Below the pieces are notes generated by a model. That model saw only the letters and a program-made list of their open reading frames with translations. It was not told where the DNA came from and made no database searches. A DNA stretch of 64,000 nucleotides from Methanoculleus methanifontis. Lineage in GTDB: Archaea > Halobacteriota > Methanomicrobia > Methanomicrobiales > Methanoculleaceae. Every line of letters starts with the position of its first letter. The stretch's first letter is position 1. The stretch is taken from positions 1 through 64,000 of the forward strand of contig NZ_VCYI01000011.1 in assembly GCF_030464365.1 (NCBI RefSeq). Direction: 5' to 3'. The translations under genes and the position numbers were made by a program. Shown here piece by piece: positions 47,418 to 56,785 of the stretch.

Positions 47418-48592
47418 GATCGCTTCTCTCCCGCGTTGCCGGGGAGGTCAGGGAGCTCGCCGTCGTCGACGGCGAGACCGCGTACATCCGCGACCCGGTC
47501 TTTCCGGTCATCCGGAACCGCGTGCACGCCGAGGTCGCAAAAGCGATGCTCCGGTCAGGCGGCGACCCGCTCGTGGGCCCGATCCTCGACTACACTGTCG
47601 GGTGCCAGAACCAGGACGGATCCTACAACGAGGTTCACGTGAACTACAACGAGCCTTCGGCCCTGATCACGGCGTTTATCGGCGACGCGCTCCTGGAAGC
47701 GGCGGAGCGGTATCCGCACGAGGAGGCGCTTTCAAAGGCCCGGGACTATGTCCTCGCCGCCGAGAGGAGCCGGGGATGTTTCCTGAAGTCCCGGGGCTAC
47801 ACCGCCGACCACCTGAACGTCGACGCCTCCTGCGGGGCGTTCCTCGCCCGGTATGCGGAGCGCTACGACGATGAGGAAGCCCGTGCAGCCGCGTTGCGGG
47901 CGGCGGAGAACGTCGTCCGCCACCAGCGGCGCGACGGCGTCTACCCCTACGCGGTCGATAAGGGGACTTATCCCTACGTCTTCAATCTCCCCTGCGTGCA
48001 CTACCAGGGGGTGACGATCTACTACCTCGCAAAGGCAAACGATGCCCTGTGCGACGAGCGGGTCGACGGAAGCATCGCGAAAGGCGTGCGGTGGCTTGCG
48101 GACGCCCAGCGCCCCGGCGGGCGGTTTGACTGGTCGAGGAGCGGGCTATCCTTCGCCTACTACCTCTCTGGGGCGTACGCGTTCGCCCTGGCCTCGTTCG
48201 TCTATGCGTCGCGGACGGACGAGCGTTACCGCGAACACGCCGACCGCTGTCTTGAGCAGCTCGAGCGGGATGTGCAGGGGCTCACCCCCCGGTGGGAGCC
48301 CGGCTCCTGGGCAGGTCTCGTCCCGTCCGTCGCCACGGCGGCGAGGGCGGCGTCGCTCGGGAACTACCCGTTGCGGCACCGGGCGTTCCGGTTCGGCTAC
48401 GGCATGTATCGCGAGATCGCCCGCCGCCGGTACGGAGAAACCCCGGAGACGCGGTCGTTCGAGGCGCTCTGCCGACTGCTCGGGATCCGAACTTCAACCG
48501 TGGAACCGTCGAATAACTTCCCCGATCTCTTCATGACCTCGGAGGTGCTCGACTGCCTCAGTCAGTCGAGAGTCTGGGAGAACCACATATGA
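47402..48592 (+). CDS. Alpha/alpha-toroid protein of a glycan locus
   Basis: 396 residues, made of helical repeats such as KAMLRSGGDPLVGPILDYTV, DALLEAAERYPHEEALSKAR and RWLADAQRPGGRFDWSRSGL with QDGSYN-type turns. These are typical of six-hairpin (alpha/alpha)6 toroids, as in heparinase II/III lyases, GH88-like hydrolases and terpenoid cyclases. The catalytic residues of any one family could not be assigned. In bacterial loci such genes sit next to the two-domain oxidoreductase that follows here (the stop overlaps that ATG, 48589-48592). So it may modify or cleave the same uronic-acid glycan. Confidence 0.6.
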   Translation: MDGRIRSLLSRVAGEVRELAVVDGETAYIRDPVFPVIRNRVHAEVAKAMLRSGGDPLVGPILDYTVGCQNQDGSYNEVHVNYNEPSALITAFIGDALLEAAERYPHEEALSKARDYVLAAERSRGCFLKSRGYTADHLNVDASCGAFLARYAERYDDEEARAAALRAAENVVRHQRRDGVYPYAVDKGTYPYVFNLPCVHYQGVTIYYLAKANDALCDERVDGSIAKGVRWLADAQRPGGRFDWSRSGLSFAYYLSGAYAFALASFVYASRTDERYREHADRCLEQLERDVQGLTPRWEPGSWAGLVPSVATAARAASLGNYPLRHRAFRFGYGMYREIARRRYGETPETRSFEALCRLLGIRTSTVEPSNNFPDLFMTSEVLDCLSQSRVWENHI

Positions 48593-50736
48593 AACAGGTA
48601 TTGCTCGACCTGCAGTCAGGGTCCATCCAGGTGGAGAACGTTCCCGTTCCCGCCGTAACGAGGGGGGTGGTCGTCGAGAACGCCTACTCCCTCATCAGCG
48701 CCGGCACGGAGTCGTCGCTGATCAACCTCGCACAGCAGTCGCTCGTCGGCAAGGCGAAGGCACGCCCCGACGATGTGAAAAAAGTCATCCAGAAAGTGGG
48801 GACGGACGGCCCTCTCTCGGCCTACCAGCAGGCGATGAGCCGCCTGGCGAAACCCGAACCACTCGGCTACAGCTCTGCCGGCACGGTGGTGACGACCGCG
48901 TCCGACGAGTTCGAGGTCGGCGACCGCGTCGCCTGCGCCGGAGCCGGGTATGCGGTGCATGCCGAGTACGTCTCGGTTCCAAAGAACCTCTGCGTCAGGA
49001 TCCCCGACGGTGTCGAGTTTAAGGAGGCGGCGTTCACGACCGTAGGAGCGATCGCGATGCACGGCGCGAGAAACGCGAATGTCACCGTGGGCGAGAACGT
49101 CGCGGTGATCGGGCTCGGTTTGATCGGGCTTCTCACCGTCCAGATCCTCAAAGCCGCAGGGTGCCGGGTGATCGGGATCGATATCGACCGGGAGAAACTT
49201 TTACTCGCAGAATGCCTCGGTGCGGACGTCGTCTCGAACTACGACGGCCTCTTCGAGAGGGCGCGGGCGTTATCGCCGTTCGGGGCGGACGCGGTCGTCA
49301 TCACCGCCGCCACCCGGTCAAGCGCCCCAATCGAGGCCGCCGGCCGCCTGGTCCGGGATAAGGGGAGGGTCGTGGTCGTCGGGAACGTCGGCATGAACGT
49401 GCCCCGGGATGTCTTCTACGCAAAAGAGGCGGAGGTCGTCGTCTCCCGGTCATACGGCCCCGGCCGCTACGACAGGAACTACGAGGAGCGGGGGATCGAC
49501 TACCCGATCTACGTTCGGTGGACGGAGAAGAGGAACATGGAGGCGTTCCTTGAACTGGTGCGCCAGAAGAAGATCGACCTCGACCGCCTGATCACCCATA
49601 CGTTCCCGCTCGACGACGCACCGGGGGCTTACGACCTCATCAACACCGGAAAAGAACGGTTCATCGGGGTTCTCTTGCAGTACAGCCCGAACGGTGCGGG
49701 TGCCTCCGGCACCGTCGTCCGCTTCCCGGGGCCCGGCGCACGGACACGGAAGGCTCCGGCCGCGGCCCGGACGCTCGGGTGTATCGGCGCCGGGGTTCAC
49801 GCCCAGAGCGCCCTCTACCCGCACCTCTCCGCCCTTCCAGTGAACCTCGGGGGGCTCGCGACCGCGACGGGACTCTCGGCGCAGACGGTCGCGAAGAAGT
49901 ACGGGTTCGCCTACTGCACCACCGACCACCAGAGGATCCTCGACGACCCCGATATCGACGCAGTGATGATCGCGACCAGAAACGATCTCCACGCACCGAT
50001 GGCGATCAACGCGCTGCGTGCCGGAAAAGACGTCTTCGTGGAAAAACCGCTTGCGACCGATATCGACGGCCTCCGGCGGATCGTCGAGGCCAGAAACGAG
50101 TCCGGGCAGCGGCTGATGGTCGGGTTCAACCGCCGCTATTCCCCGCTTGCGGTGAAGATGAAGAATTTCTTCGCAAACCGGGCAACTCCCGCCGTCCTGC
50201 ACTACCGGGTCAACGCCGGGCAGATCCCGCCCGAACACTGGGTGCACGACGACGAGCAGGGCGGCGGCATGCTGATCTCGGAGTGCTGCCACTTCATCGA
50301 CTTCATGCAGTACATCACCGGGGCACGGCCGGTCCAGGTCGTTGCCCGGGCGATCGAGCCGACCGGGACGCTCCAGAAGTACGACAACTTCCAGGCGACC
50401 CTAACCTTCGACGACGGGTCGCTCGGCACCGTCACCTACACGACGCTCGGCGACCGCTCCTACCCCAAAGAGACCGTCGAGGTCTTCGCCGGCAACGCTG
50501 TCGGGAGGATCACCGACTTCCGCGACCTCGAACTCCGGCGGGAGGGGAAGGCATCGCGGGAGAGACGGTGGCTCGCCCAGGAGAAAGGGTTTGCCGAGGA
50601 ACTCCTGGCGTTCGTGAAGGGCGAGGAGCCGGAATTCGCCGCAAGCGTCGCAACGACGCTTGCAACGTTTGCGGCATGGGAGTCGATCGATACCGGGACA
50701 GCGCAGGAGATCGATCCCGGGCGGGTGGGGTTGTGA
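48589..50736 (+). CDS. Two-domain oxidoreductase: zinc alcohol dehydrogenase-like plus Gfo/Idh/MocA
   Basis: 715 residues. Residues 1-350 are a medium-chain dehydrogenase: EYVSVPKNLCVRIPDGVEFK, then the NAD-binding GLGLIGLLTVQILKAAGCRV and MHGARNANVTVGENVAVIG. From about 385 on, a second Rossmann domain (LGCIGAGVHAQSALYPHLS, DAVMIATRNDLHAPMAINAL, AGKDVFVEKPLATDIDGLRR with the EKP motif) is a Gfo/Idh/MocA oxidoreductase. This fused type occurs in heparosan/capsule-related bacterial loci and is thought to act on a sugar nucleotide. It overlaps the toroid gene by four bases. Confidence 0.88.
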   Translation: MKQVLLDLQSGSIQVENVPVPAVTRGVVVENAYSLISAGTESSLINLAQQSLVGKAKARPDDVKKVIQKVGTDGPLSAYQQAMSRLAKPEPLGYSSAGTVVTTASDEFEVGDRVACAGAGYAVHAEYVSVPKNLCVRIPDGVEFKEAAFTTVGAIAMHGARNANVTVGENVAVIGLGLIGLLTVQILKAAGCRVIGIDIDREKLLLAECLGADVVSNYDGLFERARALSPFGADAVVITAATRSSAPIEAAGRLVRDKGRVVVVGNVGMNVPRDVFYAKEAEVVVSRSYGPGRYDRNYEERGIDYPIYVRWTEKRNMEAFLELVRQKKIDLDRLITHTFPLDDAPGAYDLINTGKERFIGVLLQYSPNGAGASGTVVRFPGPGARTRKAPAAARTLGCIGAGVHAQSALYPHLSALPVNLGGLATATGLSAQTVAKKYGFAYCTTDHQRILDDPDIDAVMIATRNDLHAPMAINALRAGKDVFVEKPLATDIDGLRRIVEARNESGQRLMVGFNRRYSPLAVKMKNFFANRATPAVLHYRVNAGQIPPEHWVHDDEQGGGMLISECCHFIDFMQYITGARPVQVVARAIEPTGTLQKYDNFQATLTFDDGSLGTVTYTTLGDRSYPKETVEVFAGNAVGRITDFRDLELRREGKASRERRWLAQEKGFAEELLAFVKGEEPEFAASVATTLATFAAWESIDTGTAQEIDPGRVGL

Positions 50737-51374
50737 AGCAGTTCAACCAATTTTTGCGATGTCTAAGGACGGGCCCCTTTACGGCCTTGATAGCGAAGCC
50801 GTCCCAAAAAGCCTCTTCCCTGAGGGAAGATATTTGAAAGGGGCATAAAAGCGATATAAAATCATATACTCAAATTTCCGATAACGCATGTAAAAAGCTT
50901 TGAACCATGAGGATCTGTAGTCGCCGAATACTGTTCGGGCGACTTCAGTTACTAAAATAGCAGAGATATGCGCAAAGGTAGAAGTTGTCCCAAACGCTAT
51001 TGCCGGGAGGGGGACACCCCCTCCCGGACTCTCCCCCGAGTGGCGATATCCAATGGAAAGCCGTTTCACCCTTCTTGTTCAGAATGTGGCTCAAATGGTA
51101 GATAACTGGGAAGTAAGGGCTCCGGTTAGGGTATGCCGGAGGTTCGGAGATCTTTTTGGACGAACTCGTATACTGTTAAGGTGGGTTATTCACACTGCCC
51201 GTTATGGTAGGGGTATTGCTGGAGCTCACCTTTATTTCAAGGATTCAATTTAAAAAAGGCTTTTCAAGGCTAAAGGTTAATTTCCCACATTCATTTTGCT
51301 GCGTATTCTATTCCCAAACAATTCCGCGAAATAAGCATCGACAAGTATTTGGTATGGAATAATGATTTCTCATC
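50737..51374. other. AT-rich noncoding stretch with repeat copy B
   Basis: 638 bases without a convincing gene between the glycan series and the HNH gene. It holds the repeat copy at 50981-51162. The rest is AT-rich, with TTTAAAAAAGGC-like tracts at 51250, and I see no RNA. Confidence 0.5.
50981..51162 (-). repeat. Dispersed structured repeat, copy B
   Basis: On the reverse strand this runs parallel to copy A (3956-4208): CCAAAAAGATCTCCGAACC, TACCCTAA, GAGCCCTTA, TGAGCCACAT, GGGTGAAACGGC, TGTCCCCCTCCCGG and GGGACAAC come in the same order. The GC palindrome GGGAGGGGG-ACA-CCCCCTCCC is retained at 51005-51026. The 40-base tandem block of copy A is missing. Similarity stops abruptly at both ends. 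Confidence 0.65.
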
Positions 51375-51758
51375 ATGGTGATAAATGAGACAAAACGCGA
51401 ATCATACGTAAAGCGACTTTTCTTAGGGGAGAAAAAACGTGTCGACTCTGGAGAAAGGAAAAAGAAAGAAAGGATAAGCCCTGACGATGCACAAGGCAAA
51501 GAAATCGTCCGTAAGTATAAAGCAAAATGTGACGTGTGCAGTCTGCCTTATACGGATCCCCACCAATTTGCCATTCATCATATTAATGGGGATCCAGAGA
51601 TCACAATTACTCGAAATCTGACTCTTCTGTGCAGTAACTGCCATAATGGCATTCACGGTACCGTAGATAGCCAGATAAAGGATTATAAAAATAATCAGAA
51701 GAAAATCGCTGGTGAAAAACAGAGTTTGTCAATAAAACCTAAAAAAAACCAAAGTTAA
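51375..51758 (+). CDS. HNH endonuclease domain protein (first part of a frameshifted fusion)
   Basis: 127 residues. An N-terminal basic part leads to the HNH zinc-finger nuclease: CDVCSLPYTDPHQFAIHHIN (HHIN core), NLTLLCSNCHNGIHG with CxxC knuckles. The frame ends at TAA 51756, a few codons after a run of eight A (51741-51748). If one A were absent, the reading would continue into a DnaJ-type zinc finger (see next entry). AT-rich and unlike its neighbours, near repeat copy B, so likely mobile or transferred. Without the tail it is still a plausible nuclease. Confidence 0.7.
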   Translation: MVINETKRESYVKRLFLGEKKRVDSGERKKKERISPDDAQGKEIVRKYKAKCDVCSLPYTDPHQFAIHHINGDPEITITRNLTLLCSNCHNGIHGTVDSQIKDYKNNQKKIAGEKQSLSIKPKKNQS

Positions 51759-51963
51759 GTGTGGGTTTTGCAGGGGTAGTGGAAAGGGATTAACAGGATT
51801 TTACCATTGTCCAGTGTGCCAAGGGGAGGGGCAAATCGAAGTCTTCAGTCCGCCAGAGAAATGCAGAGTCTGTAAAGGAACTGGAAAGGATTCTCTTGGC
51901 ATAACAACGTGCCAGAAGTGTGGTGGCACAGGATATACCAACACCACAAAAAGACTTGACTGA
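51759..51963 (+). pseudogene. DnaJ-type zinc finger, out of frame with the HNH gene
   Basis: About 68 codons with four CxxCxGxG-type knuckles: CGFCRGSGKG, CPVCQGEGQI, CRVCKGTGKD and CQKCGGTGYT, ending RLD and stop at 51961. There is no start codon in this frame between the upstream stop at 51730 and the first knuckle. The HNH frame reaches it if the A8 run at 51741-51748 loses one base. So it is either the lost C-terminus of the HNH protein, the product of a slippage event, or a sequencing error in the A tract. Confidence 0.65.
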
Positions 51964-52287
51964 AACTGAGAATCTGGCTATCTTTGATTCTCAGGCCTCA
52001 GGTGGAGTAACTGTCATTTCTCGGAACACCGAGAGCCCTATTCCACCGGCTATCGCCACGCACTGCCCCCGCCCCCGGGGCGGGGGAGGAGGCCGAAGGC
52101 CGGGCGGGGTGGGGGCTACAGGCAGCAATCTATGAGCAGGGGGCGGAGAAGAAGCAGGCCCCTCCCCGCGAGCCGCCTCCCCTATTAGCGATATCACCAC
52201 GTGCTGCTCTCGCTCCGAAACATCGCACCAACAGAAAAAAAACACCCGGGGAGAGCCCGGGCCCCCCGCCTGATACCGGCTCAGCGT
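51964..52287. other. Intergenic stretch with GC palindrome
   Basis: 324 bases. A near-perfect palindrome (CCCCCGCCCC/GGGGCGGGGG at 52066-52086) stands out, followed by GC-rich short repeats (GAGGAGGCCGAAGGCCGGGC). The open frames across it are low in complexity and were not called. Confidence 0.45.
52066..52086. terminator. GC-rich palindrome, possible RNA hairpin
   Basis: Ten-base arms pair almost perfectly with a one-base gap, strong enough for a hairpin or a cruciform. It lies between the ends of the HNH locus and the radical SAM gene, so it could separate the transcripts. Confidence 0.3.
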
Positions 52288-53475
52288 TTACGGGGACGAA
52301 ATCCGGGCGTTTCGGACATACGCCAGCTGCTCGCGGATCCTCTCCGGGACGGTGCGGGATTCCTCCACCGAAACGCCCTCCTTCCACTCCTCGCGGCACG
52401 AGCAGTCCAGGCTGTCGAACTCCGCCGTGTCGAAATAGGAGTTGTAACGCTGGATCGCTTCCGTAATCTCGGCATCGCACGTCCCGCAGTTCCGGGCCCA
52501 GTCGAGCGACTCGACCGAGTAGTTCCAGGGGCTGACGTAGACATGGGCACGGTTCCCGAACCGCTCCCGGCACTGCTGCAGGAGTTCAATGAGCGTCCAG
52601 AGCCACGGCGGGCGGTAGAGATCGTTCTTCCAGAGTTCGTGTACGACGGTGTTCTTCTCGACCGTCGTCACCTCGAGGTCGACGTAATCGATCCCGCGCG
52701 AGACGCAGTAGGAGATGGTCTGCAGAATATCATTTATTGCTTCTCCTTCGGTAAGGAACGGCGGTTTTACCAGGAGGAGCGGTTTCGTCAGCACGCCCAT
52801 CCCCCGCATCCTCGAATGGAAGAGATCGAAGTTGTTCGCCGAGAACCCCTTGTTGATGCAGAGGTTCATCACCTGGGCGTTTGCAGACTCGAACCCGAAC
52901 GCCACCTCGAGCTGCCGCCCGTTCAAGGCTTTCTTCATCTTTGCCACGTGCTCATCGGGGGAATAATCGATCCTCGACTCGACGACCACCTTTTTGATGT
53001 TTTTGTAGCCGTCGATGTACGAGCAGATCTTCTCGATGGCGGCAACCGGCATCTCGCGTTCGTTAAAGATGTTGCCGTCGTTGTAGATCGAGACGATCGG
53101 GTAATCCTCGAGATCGACGGTATCCATCACGTACTCGAACTGCGCAACGTACTCGTCCGCCGATATCTCCCTGCCCCGGGACGTTGCACAGTAAAACCCG
53201 CACATGGTGCACCCCCCCGTCTTCTCGACCCACTCGCACCCCGTGGAACGGAGGAAGATGATCAGCCGCCTGATGGGCTGATCGTCGAGATGGCCTATCC
53301 GCTCCTCCCATCCGATGGGAACCGTAAAATCGAGGTCGTGCGGAGCGTCTCCATTCCGTTTGCGCAGCCCGCCGGCCAGTGCCCGGATCTCATTTAGAAT
53401 ATCATTTTCCGTTGAGGGACCCGTAAAGGTCTCTGCGCTGCTACTGCTATCAGGTACGGCCCTATCCAGAATCAT
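52288..53475 (-). CDS. Radical SAM protein, probable archaeosine synthase subunit RaSEA
   Basis: 395 residues from MILDRAVPD; GGGGGG lies upstream and the longer start at 53496 is weaker. RSTGCEWVEKTGGCTMCGFY places the radical SAM cysteines (CTMCGFYC) in an Elp3-like context, followed by VSIYNDGNIFNEREMPVAAI, VVVESRIDYSPDEHVA and LEVAFGFESANAQVMNLCIN. This ordering matches RaSEA, which works with ArcS to turn a lysine-bearing intermediate at G15 of tRNA into archaeosine. No arcS gene is in the window. An unrelated radical SAM oxidoreductase of Elp3 type cannot be excluded. Confidence 0.65.
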   Translation of the reverse strand: MILDRAVPDSSSSAETFTGPSTENDILNEIRALAGGLRKRNGDAPHDLDFTVPIGWEERIGHLDDQPIRRLIIFLRSTGCEWVEKTGGCTMCGFYCATSRGREISADEYVAQFEYVMDTVDLEDYPIVSIYNDGNIFNEREMPVAAIEKICSYIDGYKNIKKVVVESRIDYSPDEHVAKMKKALNGRQLEVAFGFESANAQVMNLCINKGFSANNFDLFHSRMRGMGVLTKPLLLVKPPFLTEGEAINDILQTISYCVSRGIDYVDLEVTTVEKNTVVHELWKNDLYRPPWLWTLIELLQQCRERFGNRAHVYVSPWNYSVESLDWARNCGTCDAEITEAIQRYNSYFDTAEFDSLDCSCREEWKEGVSVEESRTVPERIREQLAYVRNARISSP

Positions 53476-53952
53476 TATCCCCCCTGTTCCGGGCATGCAC
53501 CTTCATGCCGAAGGCGCGCATCCCCGGTGACTGTCGCCTTATCTTAGCAAGACATACCCCTGATAGGGCTCCGCATATTTATAACTTATCCAATCGGCCA
53601 GGTTATCGGGCTATGTTTGCGAAAAGGTATTCTTTGACAGGAAATCCAGAAAATCAGGCAATCTGTTGAGATGACTCGGATCCGGACTCCTGCCGTATTT
53701 CCCCAGGAGGCTATCCATTCGTCCATAGAACCCTGATCCCGAATGGGAGAGATGACAGCATGCCAATTTTTATATACGTTGTTCGGGGGTATAGTATCGC
53801 GATGCACCGGCGAGCATTCATCCGGGCGGATCACCCGAAGAACAGCCGGAAAGCGACAGTGGAGACTGAAAAGCAGTGGGACGAAGAGGCGGCGTGACCG
53901 TCCGTTTTCGGTGGATATGGAAGAAGAGCGCGTAAAGAAGGGAACGAAGATC
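53476..53952. other. Intergenic stretch before the first CapK-like gene
   Basis: 477 bases. A TATA box TTTTTATATACG sits at 53766-53777, followed by a short leader in which two in-frame ATGs (53917 and 53953) can start the next gene. The region 53590-53740 shows no gene; a frame on the reverse strand there has no family match. Confidence 0.45.
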
Positions 53953-55380
53953 ATGGTTCGTCTGGGAGAGAGGATCTGCGGCAGGGAATCGTTCACTGCA
54001 AAAGCTCTCGGGCTCCTCCCGGCTTATAACACCTATCGAAAGACCTACGCCCTTCTCCAGGAGTCCCAGGGGTGGAGCCGGGAAGAACTCGCGGCCCACC
54101 AGGCCAAGGCGCTCTCGCGTCTGCTCGACCACGCCTACGAGAATGTCCCTTACTACCGCCGGGTCTTTCAGGAGCAGAGCCTCGTCCCCGAGGACATCCA
54201 GACTCCCGAAGACCTGGTGCTCCTCCCGTTCCTGACCCGGGCAGACCTCCAGACCAACCTCCCCGACTTAAAAGCCCAAAACTACCCGGAGTCCGCCTTC
54301 GAGTACGTCACCACCGGCGGCTCCACCGGTATCCCGGTCGGGTTCTACTACGAGAGAGGGGTCTCCCGCGCCCGGGAATGGGCGTTCATGAAGACCCAGT
54401 GGGACCGCGTCGGCTACCGGTTCACCGACCGTTGCGCCGTCCTCCGGGGCTACATCGTTGGATCGGCAAAAGAAGGTGTCTACTGGAAGAAGACCCTCTG
54501 CGGCCGGTGGCTGCTGATGTCTTCCCATCACATGGCCGAGGAGACGCTGCCCGCCTACATCGACCGGATCAAGAGGTTCAAACCCCGCTTCATCCAGGGA
54601 TACCCCTCCACGGCCGTGATCCTGGCACGGTACATGCGGGAGCACGGGATCGAACCGTTCCCGACCGTCAAAGCCGTCCTCTGCGGGTCGGAGAACCTCT
54701 ACCCCTGGCAGCGCGACCTCCTCACCGAGGCCTTCGGCTGCCGCGTCTTCTCCTGGTACGGCAACTCCGAACAGACAGTGCTTGCCGGCGAGTGCGAGGA
54801 GAGCTGCCATTACCACATCTTCCCCGAATACGGGATCGTCGAACTGATCGGGCGAGATGGACAGCCCGTCCAGGGGCCGGGGGCGATGGGCGAGGTGGTC
54901 GCGACCAACCTCACCAACTTCGTCTGCCCCCTCATCCGCTATCGCACCATGGACCTTGCCACAGCGGGCAGGGGCCCCTGTACCTGCGGCCGGAGTTACC
55001 CGATACTCGAACGAGTCGAGGGGAGGGTTCAGGACTTCATCGTGACAGGTAAAGGCGAACTCCTCTCCGGAATTGCCATGAACATTGACACCGATGCGTT
55101 CGATAACGTTAAACAGTTTCAGTTCTACCAGGAGAAAGTTGGGGAAGTCATACTGAATGTCGTGAGAAAACCGGCCTTCAGCAAGCAGGACGCGGAGTAC
55201 CTCTACCGGGAAGTGAGCAGGAGTTGCGGTGACGACGTTCTGATCACCATCAGATACGTCGACAACATACCGCTCACCGCCCGCGGCAAGTATCGTTACT
55301 TCGTTCAGGACCTGCCGATACACTTCAGCGAACGAGAAGGGGGGATTGTCGAACATGCTTCCCCCGACCTTCTCGCCTGA
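53953..55380 (+). CDS. PaaK/CapK-like adenylate-forming enzyme, copy 1
   Basis: 475 residues from MVRLGERICG (a start at 53917 is possible; the alignment with copies 2 and 3 favours the shorter form). The AMP-binding loop is TTGGSTGIPVGFYYE, then GSENLYPWQRDLLTEAFGC and SWYGNSEQTV for the adenine pocket, and YRTMDLA with a zinc-type CTCGRSYP. PaaK-like enzymes activate carboxylic acids as acyl-adenylates. Central two thirds are almost identical in nucleotides to copy 3, while the ends differ. It is followed at once by copy 2, with which its end overlaps. CapK-like homologues occur in capsule loci. Confidence 0.85.
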   Translation: MVRLGERICGRESFTAKALGLLPAYNTYRKTYALLQESQGWSREELAAHQAKALSRLLDHAYENVPYYRRVFQEQSLVPEDIQTPEDLVLLPFLTRADLQTNLPDLKAQNYPESAFEYVTTGGSTGIPVGFYYERGVSRAREWAFMKTQWDRVGYRFTDRCAVLRGYIVGSAKEGVYWKKTLCGRWLLMSSHHMAEETLPAYIDRIKRFKPRFIQGYPSTAVILARYMREHGIEPFPTVKAVLCGSENLYPWQRDLLTEAFGCRVFSWYGNSEQTVLAGECEESCHYHIFPEYGIVELIGRDGQPVQGPGAMGEVVATNLTNFVCPLIRYRTMDLATAGRGPCTCGRSYPILERVEGRVQDFIVTGKGELLSGIAMNIDTDAFDNVKQFQFYQEKVGEVILNVVRKPAFSKQDAEYLYREVSRSCGDDVLITIRYVDNIPLTARGKYRYFVQDLPIHFSEREGGIVEHASPDLLA

Positions 55381-56785
55381 CCAGGGAGGTATGCATACGA
55401 AGGCAGGTCTTCACCGATGGGCGTCACGCGCAAACCCGCTCACCGTAAAGGCACTCAGCCTGGTGCCGTCTTACCGCACCTACCAGCAGATGTATGCGCT
55501 CCTCCAGCAATCCCAGTGGTGGAGCCGCGAAAAACTCGCGGCCTACCAGGCGCAGGCACTCTCGCGCCTGCTCGACCACGCCTATGAGAATGTCCCCTAC
55601 TATCGCCAGGTTTTTCAAGAACGCGACCTCATCCCGGAGGACATCCAGGGCCCGGCGGACCTCGAACTCCTCCCGTTCCTGACCAAGGAGATCGTCCAGG
55701 CCAACCTCTCCGACTTAAAAGCTCAAAACTACCCGGAGTCCGCCTTCGAGTACGTGCGCACGTCCGGCTCCACCGGCACCCCCATGGGGTTCTACTACGA
55801 GAAAGGGGCCTCCCGCGCCCGGGAGTGGGCGTTCATGAAGACCCAGTGGGACCGCGTCGGTTACCGGTTCGGCGACCGTTGCGTCATACTCCGGGGGCAC
55901 GTCGTGGACACGGTACCCAGTGGCACCTACTGGAGGCGTGCGCTCTTCGGCCGGTGGCTGATCATGTCCTCCCACCAGATGACCGAGGAGACCCTGCCGG
56001 ACTACATCGACCGGATCCGCTGGTTTAAGCCGCGGTTCATCCACGCCTACCCCTCCACTGCCGTGATCCTGGCACGATATATGCGGGAGCACAGGATCGA
56101 ACCGTTCCCGACCGTCAAGGCCGTCCTCTGCGGGTCGGAGAACCTCTATCCCTGGCAGCGCGACCTCCTCACCGAGACCTTCGGCTGCCGCGTCTTCTCC
56201 TGGTACGGCAACTCCGAACAGACGGTGCTTGCCGGCGAGTGCGAGGAGAGCGCCCACTACCACATCTTTCCCGAATACGGGATCGTCGAACTGATCGGAA
56301 GGGACGGCCGACCCGTCCAGGGGCCGGGGGCGATGGGCGAAGTGGTCGCGACGAGCCTCATCAACTTCGTCTGCCCCCTCGTCCGCTACCGCACCATGGA
56401 CGTCGCGGTCACCACGGAGAAGCGGTGCTCCTGCGGGAGACAGTACCCCCTGCTCGAGAAGGTGGAGGGGAGGCTCCAGGAGTTCATCGTAACCCGGAGC
56501 GGACACCTGATCTCCGTCACGCCCATCAACTACGAATCCGAGGCGTTCGAGAATATACGGCAGTTCCAGATGTACCAGGAGGAGGTGGGCGAACTCATCA
56601 TGAAGGTCGTCAGAAAACCGGCCTACACCGAGAAGGACACCCGGCAACTGACCGCTGAACTCCGGTGCCAGCTCGGTGACGGGGTGAACGTCCACGTCCG
56701 CTTCGTTGATGAGATCCCCCGTACCGAAGGCGGCAAGTTCCGGTACCTCATCCAGAAACTCCCCATCTCGATCGGCGATCTCTGA
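55355..56785 (+). CDS. PaaK/CapK-like adenylate-forming enzyme, copy 2
   Basis: 476 residues from the ATG at 55355, with GGGGGG some 10 bases ahead; a second ATG is at 55391, which aligns better with the other copies. Motifs match copy 1: RTSGSTGTPMGFYYE, GSENLYPWQRDLLTETFGC, SWYGNSEQTV and CSCGRQYPLLEK. It overlaps the end of copy 1 by 26 bases, indicating coupling of the two. The C-terminal domain (YESEAFENIRQFQMYQEEVG) differs more than the core. It converges with FemAB-like copy 1. Confidence 0.85.
   Translation: MLPPTFSPDQGGMHTKAGLHRWASRANPLTVKALSLVPSYRTYQQMYALLQQSQWWSREKLAAYQAQALSRLLDHAYENVPYYRQVFQERDLIPEDIQGPADLELLPFLTKEIVQANLSDLKAQNYPESAFEYVRTSGSTGTPMGFYYEKGASRAREWAFMKTQWDRVGYRFGDRCVILRGHVVDTVPSGTYWRRALFGRWLIMSSHQMTEETLPDYIDRIRWFKPRFIHAYPSTAVILARYMREHRIEPFPTVKAVLCGSENLYPWQRDLLTETFGCRVFSWYGNSEQTVLAGECEESAHYHIFPEYGIVELIGRDGRPVQGPGAMGEVVATSLINFVCPLVRYRTMDVAVTTEKRCSCGRQYPLLEKVEGRLQEFIVTRSGHLISVTPINYESEAFENIRQFQMYQEEVGELIMKVVRKPAYTEKDTRQLTAELRCQLGDGVNVHVRFVDEIPRTEGGKFRYLIQKLPISIGDL

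Follow-up and report, generated by a model that had tools for sequence, protein, structure and literature searches.

The question raised by this locus, in a 64,000-nucleotide stretch of Methanoculleus methanifontis DNA (hereafter the window), is whether an HNH nuclease frame and a frame coding for DnaJ-like zinc knuckles, which part company at a run of eight adenines (A8), are the two halves of one gene and, if so, what has separated them. The run occupies exactly 51741-51748 of the plus strand, at the point where the two frames diverge. The original prediction that the HNH frame ends just after A8 was borne out: the ORF of 127 aa traverses the run, reads ...IKPKKNQS and is closed by a stop codon 10 bases further on. 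The zinc-finger frame lies at +1 relative to it, is open over 51736-51960 and reads ...NLKKTKVKCGFCRGSGKGLTGFYHCPVCQGEGQIEVFSPPEKCRVCKGTGKDSLGITTCQKCGGTGYTNTTKRLD up to the stop at 51961-51963. Removal of one A (or addition of two) merges both frames into a 195-residue protein, so that the predicted joining of the HNH frame to four CxxCxGxG knuckles by a single deletion also holds. A start codon for the zinc-finger frame, which would speak for an independent gene, was looked for and no usable one was found; the first ATG, GTG or TTG of this frame is the GTG at 51814, within knuckle 2, with none ahead of it. The features are collected in Table 1.

Table 1. Coordinates of the features of the split gene and of its flanking genes in the window.
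Feature	Position	Strand	Basis
HNH nuclease frame, ending KPKKNQS after A8	51375-51758	+	127 aa ORF; Pfam; identity to L016
HNH core CDVC...IHHINGDP...NLTLLCSNCHNGIH	51528-51656	+	Pfam PF01844 match, residues 52-94
Run of eight A, predicted disordered linker	51741-51748	+	sequence; model pLDDT; missing in L016
Zinc-finger frame, no start codon before the knuckles	51736-51963	+	reading-frame scan
Knuckle 1, CGFCRGSG	51760-51783	+	translation of zinc-finger frame
Knuckle 2, CPVCQGEG	51808-51831	+	translation of zinc-finger frame
Knuckle 3, CRVCKGTG	51862-51885	+	translation of zinc-finger frame
Knuckle 4, CQKCGGTG	51910-51933	+	translation of zinc-finger frame
Left flank, bi-domain oxidoreductase, marking the syntenic slot	48589-50736	+	ORF and homology comparison
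Right flank, archaeosine biosynthesis radical SAM protein RaSEA	52288-53496	-	TIGR01210

The uninterrupted gene, whose search in relatives had been proposed as a check, was found as a single ORF in two genomes. The first copy, in a sister genome (G009, a single draft MAG), is an ORF of 198 aa at 2632-3228 of contig L016, whose label reads Methanomicrobiales archaeon HGW-Methanomicrobiales-6; it sits in the same slot, flanked by the same two genes, and shows 76% identity to the joined window product (72% over 121 codons for the HNH part), with DNA 78% identical along the whole gene. The second, in genome G088 from another family of the order, measures 204 aa from the first Met, is 45-47% identical to the L016 protein and about 46% to the joined window product, and stays in one frame through KKPVKQKIVSVDC. 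The window sequence AAACCTAAAAAAAACCAAAGT at the junction aligns with GGCCTAAAATGGTCAAAGT in L016, which is in frame without any A-run; the run is likewise absent from the G088 junction. Since fused homologues without a break are present at 76% identity (L016) and at 46-47% (G088 against L016), the pairing of the two frames is far beyond chance, and sequence comparison indicates that the HNH and zinc parts belong to a single gene, which codes for a nuclease with a zinc-rich tail and is divided at A8, as had been proposed.

That two separate neighbouring genes are present, the zinc-finger one being expressed independently, is hardly credible. Free-standing four-knuckle proteins of 72-123 aa do occur in many archaea, and HNH proteins with other tails were found in other archaea, among them the relatives L006, L077 and L078; in these the nuclease part does without knuckles, just as the free-standing proteins have knuckles without a nuclease. 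Free-standing knuckle and HNH genes, however, never adjoined each other among the loci read, so that modularity is demonstrated and the fusion is not refuted. The separate-gene reading was rejected on the missing start codon ahead of knuckle 2 and on the single fused ORF carried by both L016 and G088, where adjacent separate genes might have been met instead.

The assignment of the two parts to known families is close to the curated limits. In the window the HNH domain (PF01844) was detected at E=0.0032 with 18.0 bits, below the cut-off of 21.4, whereas the N-terminal half of the L016 protein reached 22.7 bits against the same cut-off, and G088 scored 25.3 bits with PF13392 (cut-off 24.8). The beta-beta-alpha-metal motif of HNH enzymes (HH, N and CH/H ligand residues) is complete and invariant across the window, L016 and G088. 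Likeness to the HNH superfamily (PF01844/PF13392, including free-standing phage and archaeal proteins) extends to the CxxC...HHxNGDP...NLxLLCxxCHxxxH motif, to the predicted fold and to the PHROGs HNH families, which match at up to 6e-8; the four-knuckle zinc tail sets the present protein apart. The zinc part, with 4/4 CxxCxGxG repeats, matched DnaJ_CXXCXGXG (PF00684) at E=1.8e-7 and 31.7 bits, against a cut-off of 32.7. It resembles the central cysteine-rich domain of DnaJ in its four knuckles, from which two zinc sites are expected, and the DnaJ_bact profile aligns across the whole module; it differs in the spacers of 8, 10 and 8 residues, in the fusion to a nuclease and in the missing J domain and C-terminal substrate-binding domains, neither of which is present in the fused proteins of 198 and 204 aa. 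The free-standing four-knuckle archaeal proteins (L080-L099) and the HNH proteins with other tails are each recognisably related to one half, but the halves are separate there, and in place of knuckles the HNH relatives have a C-terminal tail that is lysine-rich or DDDLWGF-like. A search of the PDB by sequence gave nothing significant, and matches in the defence libraries, to ZorE and others, were confined to the generic HNH part.

Two side observations concern these relatives. Seven loci (L080, L082, L083, L086, L087, L091 and L099) represent a free-standing four-knuckle DnaJ-type family of about 72-89 aa that is widespread in the phylum. The archaeal HNH proteins at L077:1399-1914, L011:1438-1962 and L100:1474-1878 carry an acidic-aromatic tip (DDDLWGF, DDDWSMW and NLFDFGF, respectively), which is reminiscent of tips that bind partners, as in SSB, and could be a docking peptide.

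The state of the zinc part bears on the age of the break. Between the window and L016 the HNH part has a dN/dS of 0.12 by the NG86 method and the zinc part one of 0.16 (bootstrap 0.07-0.32); the flanking genes gave 0.15 and 0.13. The HNH part is nearly saturated in synonymous distance, which makes its ratio uncertain. The YN00 ratios were 0.31 and 0.54 for the HNH and zinc parts and 0.05-0.07 for the flanking genes, so that selection on both parts appears neighbour-like by one estimator only, NG86. The window keeps its eight Cys and its four CxxCxGxG signatures without exception, while knuckle 2 of L016 has lost one Gly. The polarisable amino-acid changes of the zinc part, with G088 as outgroup, number about 3 on the window branch and about 2 on the L016 branch, without acceleration. 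Given the retained signatures and the even rate, the zinc part is unlikely to have drifted neutrally for long in the window lineage. A zinc part without decay indicates that the break is recent, or a sequencing error, or bypassed; a faulty sequence or a bypassed frame would account for the intact zinc part just as well.

The best explanation, and probably the correct one, is a recent real one-base indel in A8 of a dispensable, acquired nuclease-zinc gene. A truncated gene or pseudogene may be recognised by a relative that carries an unbroken orthologue in the corresponding slot, and L016 carries one. The competing reading, that the run is really A7 and nothing in the gene is broken, the eighth A being a sequencing or assembly error, is distinctly less likely yet deserves some weight: the lesion sits at a homopolymer in a 30-contig draft, the zinc part is fully conserved with a normal dN/dS, and the GeneTack authors, who attribute unclustered, homologue-validated frame breaks to sequencing errors or recent indels, lean to errors for such singletons (PMC3711429). 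Against it stand the assembly completeness of 99.92% and a survey of 455 kb of the same assembly (window included), in which 74 homopolymer runs of at least 7 bases were counted, 47 of them lying in open frames 150 codons or longer, and none apart from A8 was found to break a coding frame. The three possible frame switches flagged by a codon-usage scan were all ordinary gene junctions or antisense reading; the scan is blind to the HNH-zinc locus itself, owing to its atypical codon usage, and could miss other AT-rich genes too. For A/T runs of 8 or 9 the survey is a modest test, with only 8 such runs sampled, 3 in open frames. The assembly is not generally broken at homopolymers, and because no other break of this kind occurred in the sample a real recent indel is favoured over an error, though not proven; we infer that the lesion is present in the real DNA.

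Slippage, by which RNA polymerase would yield A7 and A8 transcripts in a programmed or adventitious manner and so produce HNH alone together with HNH carrying its zinc tail, is an improbable alternative. With one A fewer the fusion is restored, two products differing by a whole domain would suit the linker position, and the zinc part retains its selection signature. In Thermus dnaX slippage is known to occur on a run of nine A, and for IS elements of Deinococcus and Nostoc productive slippage on eight A has been inferred (PMC1088944). Eight A is nevertheless below the usual across-genome threshold of nine (PMC1088944), no stable RNA element that could act as a downstream stimulatory structure was found after A8 (z = 0.31), and conservation of the slippery run in homologues, expected of programmed slippage, is contradicted by L016 and G088, which speaks against a conserved device. 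It is on account of these intact relatives without the run that slippage was ranked as the least supported of the three readings left open by the original prediction; recent mutation came out best supported, and error less likely. Still more doubtful is the stronger proposal that A8 is put to use in this lineage, slippage supplying both the bare nuclease and a form whose zinc tail directs or restrains it.

A canonical -1 heptamer, A_AAA_AAC, lies at 51743-51749 in phase with the HNH frame. Ribosomal frameshifting on it was considered and rejected, the direction being wrong: it gives PKLSVGFAGVVERD and a stop, a short dead end without knuckles. The archaeal precedent for bypass is of the -1 ribosomal type (PMC8211752). 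The gene in question, Sulfolobus alpha-fucosidase fucA, resembles the present locus as a split archaeal gene with an A-rich slippery stretch and unbroken homologues; it is bypassed by -1 frameshifting (PMC8211752), whereas the window gene needs +1 at the ribosome or one A fewer in the RNA. Bypass of the frame break at A8 is possible but unsupported.

Returning to the recent indel as the preferred explanation, the history of the gene was considered from its slot across the genus. The GC3 of the HNH and zinc parts is 38% and 41%, compared with 85% and 79% in the neighbouring genes; this low value suggests that the gene was acquired from a foreign source. In a tblastn search with the L016 protein against the slot across the genus, the gene was present solely in the window genome and in G009 (L016), with a stub in G017 that occupies the same slot and keeps the region of knuckles 3 and 4, where Tyr replaces one Cys and the frame is closed. 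The readable slots of the other congeners hold 215-1189 bp of different sequence and no gene, and a few congener loci end too soon for the presence of the gene to be judged. As most congeners lack the gene in this slot and G017 keeps a decayed stub only, it would appear to be dispensable. In the radical SAM gene some gene-less congeners are up to 92% identical to the window, against 87% for G009 and 84% for G017; these identities, together with a divergence of the HNH-zinc gene that is neighbour-like or larger, sit better with ancestral descent and several losses than with a recent transfer to this slot. Inheritance from an ancestor followed by repeated loss would thus fit the data, as read from these identities and not from a species tree.

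Some further observations on mobile elements and on the slot itself may be added. No homologues were found in phage and plasmid records; the viral contigs gave one weak match, limited to the HNH part, and a search of them with the junction pattern for a second sequence of the locus gave none. The oxidoreductase and the radical SAM gene are separated by a stretch (50737-52287) that varies in length and content across the genus, within the 215-1189 bp given above for the genomes read. It holds a GC-rich intergenic element, CTATCGCCACGCACTGCCCCC...GGGGCGGGGG, at 52049-52115, which recurs in the same slot of L016 and G017 and elsewhere in the window genome (G000 C26, near 121958, 128067 and 146065); it is apparently a dispersed repeat at the level of the genus.

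Modelled with AlphaFold (mean pLDDT 91, pTM 0.56), the intact homologue displays an N-terminal helix, the HNH strand-strand-helix core with its long helix at residues 65-69, 82-86 and 87-117 and a compact knuckle module, with the linker residues 119-121 at pLDDT <50. With this model Foldseek returned weak E-values only (best 0.07); the list consists mostly of HNH domains (Cas9, Cap5, type I-F Cascade) and the HNH-like DotN, and also holds anti-TRAP and the E. coli DnaJ cysteine-rich domain (1exk), to which the likeness of the model is weak. Because the frameshift falls in the linker, the truncated product is predicted to retain the complete HNH domain.

The following course of events may be proposed. 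A single gene for an HNH endonuclease with a C-terminal DnaJ-type four-knuckle zinc module would have been gained by an ancestor of part of Methanoculleus and since lost repeatedly; a recent one-base indel in the A-run coding for the lysine-rich linker would have shifted the zinc module out of frame, so that the product now expected would be the 127-aa nuclease domain alone, the zinc module being untranslated. From the families concerned, the most likely mechanism of the intact protein would be metal-dependent nicking or cleavage of DNA by the HNH part, with the zinc module as a binding tail that would hold nucleic acid or a partner and act as a guide. Inspection of the ORFs around the HNH genes of G088, G036, G263 and G451 revealed no partner gene common to these neighbourhoods, and, unlike in HNH systems with Cas, retron or CBASS partners, no such partner was noticed in the neighbourhoods looked at.

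No paper on an HNH-DnaJ-zinc fusion was found in the literature, and the combination is apparently an unnamed, mildly novel architecture, which two families of one archaeal order share at about 46% identity. The break itself is most likely a recent, ordinary loss-of-tail mutation; the worthwhile question is the role of the zinc tail for the nuclease, and at this one locus the gene can be compared when intact, freshly split, eroded or absent. Elsewhere in the window, the adjacent ORFs 53743-55380 and 55346-56785 share LSRLLDHAYENVPYYR and other stretches and are evident paralogues arisen by tandem duplication, the former having no Pfam match up to E=1.
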